Shown here: positions 26,389 to 54,726 of the stretch, one piece after another
How positions within the stretch are numbered: the stretch's first letter is position 1
How the letters are laid out: every line of letters starts with the position of its first letter
Source of the DNA: an uncultured Psychrobacter sp.
GTDB lineage: Bacteria > Pseudomonadota > Gammaproteobacteria > Pseudomonadales > Moraxellaceae
DNA: 64,000 nucleotides
Reading direction: 5' to 3'
NCBI GenBank assembly: GCA_947489525.1
Contig: CANLDW010000001.1
Coordinates: 496,001-560,000 of the forward strand
Made by a program: the position numbers and the translations under genes
The notes under the pieces: generated by a model
Databases searched by the model: none
The model's input: only the letters and a program-made list of their open reading frames with translations
What the model was told of the DNA's origin: nothing

Positions 26389-27484
26389 TTACAATCCTGC
26401 TTTAAGACTGGCTTCGATAAATTGATCCAGATCGCCGTCAAGCACTGCACCTGTGTTAAAGGTCTCAACGCCTGTACGCAAGTCTTTGATACGGGAGTCA
26501 TCGAGTACGTAGGAGCGGATCTGACTACCCCAGCCGACGTCGGACTTATTATCTTCCACCGCTTGCTGCGATTCCATACGCTTTTGCATCTCCAGCTCAT
26601 ATAATTTAGCGCGCAGCATTTTCATCGCTGTCGCCTTATTACCGTGCTGGCTACGCTCGTTTTGACAGGTGACCACCACCCCGCTTGGCTCATGAGTGAT
26701 ACGTACCGCAGAGTCTGTGGTATTAACGTGCTGACCGCCTGCCCCTGACGAGCGATACGTATCGATACGTAGATCAGCAGGATTGATATCGATCTCGATA
26801 TCATCGTCAATCTCAGGCGAGACAAAAATCGCCGCAAACGAGGTATGACGACCGTTATTGCTATCGAATGGCGACTTGCGTACTAGGCGATGTACGCCAA
26901 TCTCAGTACGTAGCCAGCCAAAGGCATAGTCGCCTTTGATCTCAATAGTCGCAGACTTAATACCTGCAACGCTGCCGGAGGAGACTTCGATCACCTCAAC
27001 CTTAAAACCGTGCGCCTCTGCCCAGCGCGTATACATACGCAGCAGCATCTCTGCCCAGTCCTGTGCTTCGGTACCGCCACTGCCTGATTGTACATCGAGG
27101 TAGCAGTTATTGGCGTCCATCTCACCACTAAACATCCGGCGAAACTCCAAATCAGCCACACGTTTTTCGGCGTTATCAAGCTCGCTTTGCACGTCTTTGA
27201 GTAAGGACTCGTCCTCAGCTTCAACCGCCAGCTCAAGCATGGCAGCAGCATCCTCTAACGTATTCTCCAAAGAGACGACGACATCGATGACACCATCAAG
27301 CTGGCTTTTTTCTTTACTAATCTTGGTCGCGCGCTCGGTGTCGTTCCAGATATCAGGGTTTTCTAACTCTAAATTGACTTCTTCTAAGCGCTCTTTTTTG
27401 CCGTCAACGTCAAAGATACCTCCGCAGGTCCTGTCCGCGCATCGATAAGTCTTTGATTTGTTCTTGGTAGGGATTGATTTCCAT
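26389..27484 (-). CDS. prfB: Peptide chain release factor 2, with programmed +1 frameshift
   Basis: RF2 of 364 residues read as complement(join(26389..27411, 27413..27484)). It opens at 27484 with [20 protein letters not shown], meets an in-frame TGA after 24 codons, and continues after skipping T27412 with [12 protein letters not shown]. Domains: an N-terminal helical region, the stop-codon-reading SPF tripeptide in [15 protein letters not shown], and the catalytic GGQ in [16 protein letters not shown]. It releases peptides at TGA and TAA. A longer open frame from 27537 without the shift is an artefact that starts in the adjacent repeat element. The start codon lies only 31 bp from a MITE-like insertion. 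Confidence 0.96.
27409..27422 (-). promoter_or_regulatory. prfB programmed frameshift site
   Basis: On the minus strand the sequence is GAGGTATCTTTGAC: an internal Shine-Dalgarno-like AGG, then CTT followed by TGA and C. Low RF2 makes ribosomes pause at TGA and slip +1 on CTTT. This is the classical autoregulation of RF2. Confidence 0.95.
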
Positions 27485-27515
27485 AAAGTATCTCGTAATT
27501 TGTCATTATTAAAAA

Positions 27516-27807
27516 TTAGGGCGTGTTGAACATTCATAAATGAGCACTGCTGATCGCTAAAATTGTTTCAGACAAGGCGCAAGTCGATGATAATGTGAAC
27601 ACCTTAGCAAGACTTGCAACACAGTATGGAGCAATTTTAGCATCAGCCCCTCTTATTAAGTATTAAATTACTGGGGACAGGACTATTTTTTGACGCTGCT
27701 GTGATAAAAATAGACGCTTAGAATGACTAAACTTACTCTTTTTATCTGTGCATCGTCTAAAAAATAGTCTCTGTCAGTGCCATGATCGAATGTTCAACAC
27801 GCCCTAA
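27516..27807. mobile_element. MITE-like element, copy 1 (292 bp)
   Basis: Ends are perfect 20-bp inverted repeats, TTAGGGCGTGTTGAACATTC and its complement. A TA dinucleotide borders the GGG/CCC at both ends, so a TA target duplication is possible. No transposase frame is inside. Two internal inverted repeats exist: GCTAAAATTG with CAATTTTAGC, and GACAGGACTATTTTTT with AAAAAATAGTCtCTGTC. A related 271-bp copy lies at 54456. It fills most of the 355-bp gap between prfB and the HAD gene and would form part of the prfB upstream region. Confidence 0.85.
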
Positions 27808-27839
27808 TAACGAAGGTTTAATGATTGTCCTAAATGGGC

Positions 27840-28541
27840 CTAAATTGACCAATCTTCAACTGCCCAGCGATGTGCCAAAGCGTGCGCGTGCAGTGCCTTG
27901 TCAGGCGAGACGCAAACGGCAACGTCTGCCCACTCAAGCAGTGGAATGTCGTTTTTGGAGTCCGAGTAGGCATAGGTTTTCTCAAAGCTTACGCCTTCGG
28001 CCTTGCGCTTATCAAGCCACTTATTAAGATGATAAAGCTTACCTTCTTTAAAATTGGGCTTGTCTCTTAGCTTACCTGTATAGCGATCATCTGCAACCTC
28101 AAGCGGCGTTGCTAGCACGTTAGCCGCTTCAATATCGAAACGCTCAGCAATCGCGGAGACGATAAAATCATTGGTCGCCGAGATAATAACTACGTCGTGA
28201 CCTAGATTGAGATGATCACGCAGTACGGTTAGTGCTTTCGGACGTATGTGCGGCTCAATCTCAGACTTAATATAGTCCTCACGCAGCGCGCATAAACGCG
28301 CCATCGGCAGACTACTCAAAAACTGAGCCACAAACTCATTGTACTCAGTCGCATCAAGTGTCCCTTCAATATAGTCTTGATAGAACTTTTGATTGGCAGT
28401 GCGATATTCGGCTTCGTCGACGAGACCATGCTTGACGATGTACTCGCCCCATAGGTAGTCGCTGTCGACATCGAGCAGTGTATGATCAAGATCAAATAGT
28501 GCCAATTCTTTTTTTTGCTGCGTCTTTTGCTCTTTGGGCAT
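27840..28541 (-). CDS. HAD-superfamily IB hydrolase (SerB-like phosphatase)
   Basis: A 233-residue phosphatase. ALFDLDHTLLD gives the nucleophile Asp17 and acid/base Asp19; VIISATNDFIV is motif II; the lysine in the KEGKLYHLNKWLDKRK region is motif III; and AYSDSKNDIPLLEWAD supplies the metal-binding acids of motif IV. The helical cap between motifs I and II marks subfamily IB, which includes phosphoserine phosphatase and related phosphomonoesterases. Substrate unknown. Confidence 0.87.
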   Translation of the reverse strand: MPKEQKTQQKKELALFDLDHTLLDVDSDYLWGEYIVKHGLVDEAEYRTANQKFYQDYIEGTLDATEYNEFVAQFLSSLPMARLCALREDYIKSEIEPHIRPKALTVLRDHLNLGHDVVIISATNDFIVSAIAERFDIEAANVLATPLEVADDRYTGKLRDKPNFKEGKLYHLNKWLDKRKAEGVSFEKTYAYSDSKNDIPLLEWADVAVCVSPDKALHAHALAHRWAVEDWSI

Positions 28542-54455: not shown

Positions 54456-54726
54456 TTAGGGCGTGTTGAACATTCACAAATGCGCACTGCTGATAGCTAA
54501 AATAGTTCTAGTCTAAGTGAAAATTGCAGGTAATGCTCATTGCATTGGCTAGATTTTCACAACGACTAGGGCGATTTTAGCATCAGCCTGCAAGGACAGG
54601 ACTCTTTTTTGCTGCTTTATTGATAAAAACTGACATATAGAATGACTATATTTACAATTTTTATCTGCAAATCGCCTAAAAAATAGTCTCTGTCAGTGCC
54701 AAGGTCGAATGTTCAACACGCCCTAA
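54456..54726. mobile_element. MITE-like element, copy 2 (271 bp)
   Basis: Same 20-bp inverted ends as copy 1 (TTAGGGCGTGTTGAACATTC). It shares the right part (AAAAAATAGTCTCTGTCAG) and the internal GACAGGACT and TTTTAGCATCAGC blocks, but the left interior (about 54510-54570) differs. No ORF inside. It fills most of the 359-bp gap between the glutamate-synthase-like gene and the glycosidase gene. Confidence 0.85.

Follow-up and report, generated by a model that had tools for sequence, protein, structure and literature searches.

A new MITE family with a conserved two-hairpin fold, inserted in the leader region of prfB in one Psychrobacter lineage

Analysis of a 64,000-nucleotide stretch of Psychrobacter DNA (the window) revealed a transposase-less element at positions 27517–27806, with perfect inverted ends and a TA on both sides, located 31 bp 5′ of the release factor gene prfB. 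The element is a new family within a known kind, the MITEs, and is inserted in the prfB leader region. We propose, with a probability of about 0.82, that an IS5-family transposase acting in trans carries members of this family into TA dinucleotides, and that one copy entered the gap between a phosphatase gene and prfB in the strain's own lineage.

The extent of the element, both TA dinucleotides included, was delimited using the inverted ends, the other genome copies and folding; it is assigned to the minus strand, which is the sense strand of prfB and gives the more stable consensus fold. The body runs from 27519 to 27804 between the TA at 27517–27518 on the prfB side and the TA at 27805–27806 on the far side. 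Its terminal inverted repeats, identified by end matching and pattern counts, are GGGCGTGTTGAACATTC at 27519–27535 (plus strand) and the perfect complement at 27788–27804 (minus strand), and the complementarity is 100% over the 21 nt of 27515–27535 and 27788–27808. The initial annotation had placed the element at 27516–27807; the element itself stands, but the outermost T and A of that range are flanking bases. Allowing up to three mismatches, the window has four occurrences of the end GGGCGTGTTGAACATTC, compared with 0.11 expected; allowing up to two, the genome has 21, compared with 0 for a reversed control pattern. No transposase-like ORF is present in the element according to the ORF list of the window, and the ORFs that reach into it extend from neighbouring frames. 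The RNA of the element is predicted to fold with −120.5 kcal/mol (z = −12), a value equalled by none of 200 shuffles.

On one side of the element, prfB (RF2; 26389–27484, minus strand) begins with a start codon whose A is at 27484, as counted on the sequence, and contains an in-frame TGA at 27410–27412, after which the main frame follows. This frame matches TIGR00020 with 511 bits (cut-off 370), and the TGA lies within CTTTGA, which we take to be the known RF2 frameshift site. The leader that remains between element and prfB (27485–27516, minus strand) lacks an AGGA core within the 18 nt that precede the start codon. On the other side, 33 bp away, lies the nearest upstream gene (27840–28541), which is on the same minus strand as prfB and was assigned to the HAD-IB family phosphatases by profile matches: TIGR01490 scores 125 bits, above its cut-off of 98, whereas a histidinol-phosphatase model reaches 245 bits, below its cut-off of 280. 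The original description of a short, MITE-like element with perfect ends and no transposase ORF, situated 31 bp upstream of prfB and between this gene and its nearest upstream neighbour, is thereby borne out.

The own genome (2.99 Mb, 17 contigs) contains nine full-length copies with identities of 100, 95, 93, 90, 87, 73, 73, 71 and 67%, plus partial ones. A second full copy in the window, approximately 73% identical, lies at 54457–54725 between two plus-strand ORFs; another (L007 1508–1776, own genome C5) precedes the parE start (TIGR01055) by 26 bp, and a third (L003) is separated by 133 bp from a phosphoribosylanthranilate isomerase gene downstream of it. Within the genus, 88 of 105 genomes, the own genome included, have a match at E ≤ 0.001 when up to seven candidates per genome are scored, and some of these matches cover an end only (for example G002 at 4e-4). 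With two candidates scored per genome, 118/348 genomes of the bacterial family to which the genus belongs also match; 30 of these are outside the genus and match mostly weakly, and the out-of-genus copy in G258 is a full 269-bp two-hairpin element. Plasmid matches were found in three Psychrobacter records and one Acinetobacter record, at 45 nt each, and the two examined are 66-bp miniature derivatives. Minimal derivatives, 57 and 66 bp long, consist of little beyond both ends (L274 131–188; L158 and L159), and in some copies (L268, L272 and L220) the linker that joins the hairpins contains an additional palindromic insert. A separate one-hairpin family was considered and dropped, as several half-length BLAST matches turned out to be full two-hairpin elements when read. 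The family is therefore short, has terminal inverted repeats, lacks a transposase gene and exists in many dispersed copies, all of which are features of MITEs. A search of open-licence papers found no description of it.

Two further MITE features, duplication of the target and an autonomous partner with the same ends, were found in relatives. An insertion sequence whose 18-nt ends, TAGGGCGTGTTGAACATT, match those of the element is 863 bp long counting both TAs in all 13 copies read (13/13), one of which has 1-nt end variants; an insertion sequence with the element's ends is present in plasmid pYP14c as well as in relatives. The partner transposase belongs to the IS5 family (NF033580, 255 bits, cut-off 110; matches to PF01609 and PF13340), and at least 26 genomes contain a near full-length match to it at 83% identity or more. 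All six regions with transposases that are 77–95% identical have at least one of these ends, and three of the six have both. Other IS5-like transposases were rejected as partner, with all ten regions that encode 36–54% identical transposases (10/10) devoid of these ends. In G066, an empty site is identical to the joined flanks of a family copy at 124/124 positions and has one TA; at empty sites in G050 and G010, 123 letters align to 123 at 95 and 91%, respectively, while the counterpart site of G009 needs one extra letter and that of G029 is shorter. The TA is doubled on insertion, because the uninterrupted counterparts of two family sites carry a single TA, and these single TAs, together with the same-ended IS5-family insertion sequence in relatives, indicate that the family moves. 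For the prfB copy and the own copies L004 and L002, whose flanks are too diverged, no exact empty site was found among the sampled relatives, and both TAs at prfB are presumed to represent a target duplication by analogy with the other family sites.

Over approximately 30 nt, the right end of this insertion sequence agrees with one end of the element. When the two cores were compared, the score was 18 and the mean of the shuffles was higher, at about 20, and the idea that the interior stems from this insertion sequence was rejected. Descent of the element from this insertion sequence stays putative, since only the ends and these 30 or so nucleotides at one end match. The own genome has no match to the partner transposase at E ≤ 1e-10, and the element therefore looks stranded here; a profile search of the same genome gave no PF13340 match either. 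The prfB copy would have arrived by means of the IS5-family transposase and is probably now immobile in its own genome.

The prfB gene was found in 104 of the 105 genomes, own included, and its upstream side could be read in 101 of the 104 others (G082 gave no match, and G075 and G096 gave fragments only). No element was detected upstream of prfB in these 101 species, either with the end pattern or in a BLAST search with the complete element; G078 offers 33 bp at this position and is uninformative, leaving 100 species with a readable stretch. A partial copy in G054 lies approximately 1.1 kb past the 3′ end of prfB, outside the gap. The prfB upstream gap of some relatives, such as L057, L059, L062, L083 and L102, contains different repeats or palindromes, among them a GGCGTAGGCTGGGTTTTTAACCCAGC unit, and the gap therefore seems tolerant of insertions. 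The initial annotation had named one outcome that would speak against mobility, namely the same sequence at this site in all relatives and no copies elsewhere, and the reverse is observed: the site is empty of the element in 100 species and copies are found elsewhere. The intergenic position would also suit a conserved, non-mobile intergenic sequence, but nothing further was found in favour of such a reading, and copies at many sites, the empty sites and the lack of the element before prfB in 100 other species make it extremely improbable, and we regard it as refuted.

The element had also been suggested to carry an outward promoter, and such a promoter could drive prfB in place of a lost conserved box. 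A promoter-like box within four mismatches of CAATCTCATTTAAAATAGCG precedes prfB in 70/101 relatives (exactly in 41), typically 41–42 bp from the start codon, whereas it is not recognizable upstream of prfB in the own strain, where the best score is reached by 33% of shuffles. MITEs of other bacteria are described as carrying outward promoters in the portions of PMC10969869 and PMC6382973 available to us. However, a promoter consensus scan in and beside the element gave no sigma-70-like site towards prfB and one site on the other strand, compared with 1.3 expected by chance. This negative is weak, as the scan is insensitive: applied as a control to a relative's conserved box, which is promoter-like by eye, it gave no hits. 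In addition, 31/101 relatives also lack the box and none of them carries the element there, so loss of the box need not follow insertion and cannot be tied to it. An outward promoter supplied by the element is therefore unlikely, and the suggestion found no backing in the scan; a prfB promoter in or beyond the element, as first proposed, is consistent with the data. The AGGA ribosome-binding core is found before prfB in 90/101 relatives, compared with none in the last 18 nt of the own leader.

The most interesting part of the element family is the conservation of its two hairpins, together with their inversions. Of 58 oriented copies, 49 were aligned after nine had been dropped as copies of already represented sites (L051, L201, L210, L211, L212, L213, L215, L218 and L224), and the alignment revealed a consensus fold of 81 pairs that comprises a closing stem formed by the ends and two hairpins, with 96.8% of cells paired. 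In the prfB copy, folding and alignment place hairpin 1, the first in the prfB-sense direction, at 27677–27774 (hand-mapped from columns 37–149) and hairpin 2 at 27550–27646 (mapped from columns 214–377), both on the minus strand. Two internal inverted repeats had been expected at the outset and are indeed present, but rather than being nested in each other they stand side by side within the stem made by the ends. Two-sided changes occur in 35/81 pairs (shuffle mean 16.5) and in 184 cells (shuffle mean 41.4), and all five covariation measures lie above all 500 shuffles, a comparison that is inflated by the relatedness of the copies. When the structure is slid along the alignment, pairing falls to 38.8–47.8%, although the unshifted structure is favoured here because it was derived from the same alignment. 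Several pairs, such as 80–122 and 89–112, occur as three or four Watson–Crick types, for which repeated double changes are needed. The fold is unusually well preserved in the element family, with two side-by-side hairpins. Weak strand tests gave 29 G–U against 19 A–C cells in 43 strand-symmetric pairs (G–U forbidden); four further interior positions gave 44 and 4, respectively, with 35 from one position.

The hairpins are also subject to inversion. At a first shared site, where 15 copies were taken and 14 aligned (the flank of L215 was not found), hairpin 1 has one orientation in 12/14 species; in G023 and G058, its interior is the exact reverse complement (88/88 letters with the arms), as is seen when L275 and L276 are compared with L211. 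At a second shared site, the whole element is inverted in G020 relative to eight other species (1/9), as seen for L189 compared with L198, L201 and L053; the sequences were read for G052, G092, G008 and G020, and the orientation of the other five was taken from match strands.

Three explanations of this conservation were weighed. Selection for a host RNA function in messages, which would make the hairpins a domesticated structured RNA, could account for strong pairing conservation across 49 copies from many species and for the strand preference of the fold: the consensus reaches −65.4 kcal/mol on the prfB-sense strand but −48.2 kcal/mol on the other, and 34/49 single copies fold better on the former. 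Such a function is nevertheless improbable, given that the nine own copies are in mixed orientation to their neighbours, that, measured against one of their number, the shared-site copies in 12/14 species show 0–4 differing positions, so that in-place compensation is not visible, and that the other two carry the inverted hairpin. Moreover, Rfam gave no match over the gathering score, and two weak hits far below it are taken as chance. Pairing could instead be maintained at the DNA level, by template switching or recombination within palindromes. The inverted hairpin 1 interiors in G023 and G058 are a direct sign of hairpin-level rearrangement, the inversion of the whole element in G020 points the same way, and two-sided changes could come from template-switch correction of imperfect palindromes; on the other hand, inversion leaves standard pairs unchanged and does not itself create two-sided changes, and several pairs have three or four Watson–Crick types. 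We regard this as a real possibility, to which we give somewhat less than even odds. A more tentative idea, which we consider rather doubtful, is that the element is a mobile structured nucleic acid whose hairpins are selected as RNA or single-stranded DNA that is active in the life cycle of the element.

Comparison with known systems was based on the available portions of published descriptions. MITEAba12 of Acinetobacter (113 bp, ends GGCTTTGTTGCACAAA, 9-bp target duplication, partner ISAba12; PMC6382973) is similarly a small, transposase-less element of the Moraxellaceae with insertion-sequence similarity confined to its ends and proposed mobilization in trans. In contrast, the prfB-site element is approximately 290 bp long, has GGGCGTGTTGAACATTC ends, a TA target, another IS5-family partner and two conserved hairpins; going by the portion of that description at hand, its ends, length and target set it apart, and identity with MITEAba12 was rejected. 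Correia elements of Neisseria (CREE/NEMIS), for which RNase III cleavage, promoters and inversion are reported, share with it TA as the most common target, locations near genes, stable folds and inversion (PMC10969869 and PMC9330008, in part). Going by these partial descriptions, their ends differ, and the promoter and RNase III evidence belongs to the Correia side. QMITE2 of Coxiella burnetii has a comparable transcript folding energy (about −113 as printed) but differs in its target duplication of 7–9 bp and its ends of 23–29 bp, according to the excerpt of PMC10969869.

A mechanism is proposed where the IS5-family transposase would insert the MITE in trans at TA dinucleotides, and one copy would thus have entered the gap between the HAD-IB phosphatase gene and prfB in the own lineage. 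The prfB copy is probably transcribed: a transcript of the upstream gene, or a promoter at 27807–27840, would read through it and place a self-closed double hairpin of approximately 290 nt before the 31-nt prfB leader. If it is read through, the element would most likely serve not as a promoter but as a site of RNase III-type processing or as a passive insulator. Our tentative view is that the element is transcribed and forms a double hairpin, closed on itself, between prfB and the upstream gene, and that its effect would be modest at most.

A MITE landing before a gene is a familiar kind of event; here, the leader of an essential gene has been rebuilt in one lineage, and a MITE family and its likely insertion-sequence partner are identified across most sampled species of one genus. 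If the element is indeed a mobile structured nucleic acid, each insertion would supply a message leader with a prefabricated double-hairpin module that can occasionally invert, and the recipient leader in this case would be that of an essential, self-regulated release factor. The dozens of copies provide a natural set with which to separate RNA selection from palindrome repair in DNA.
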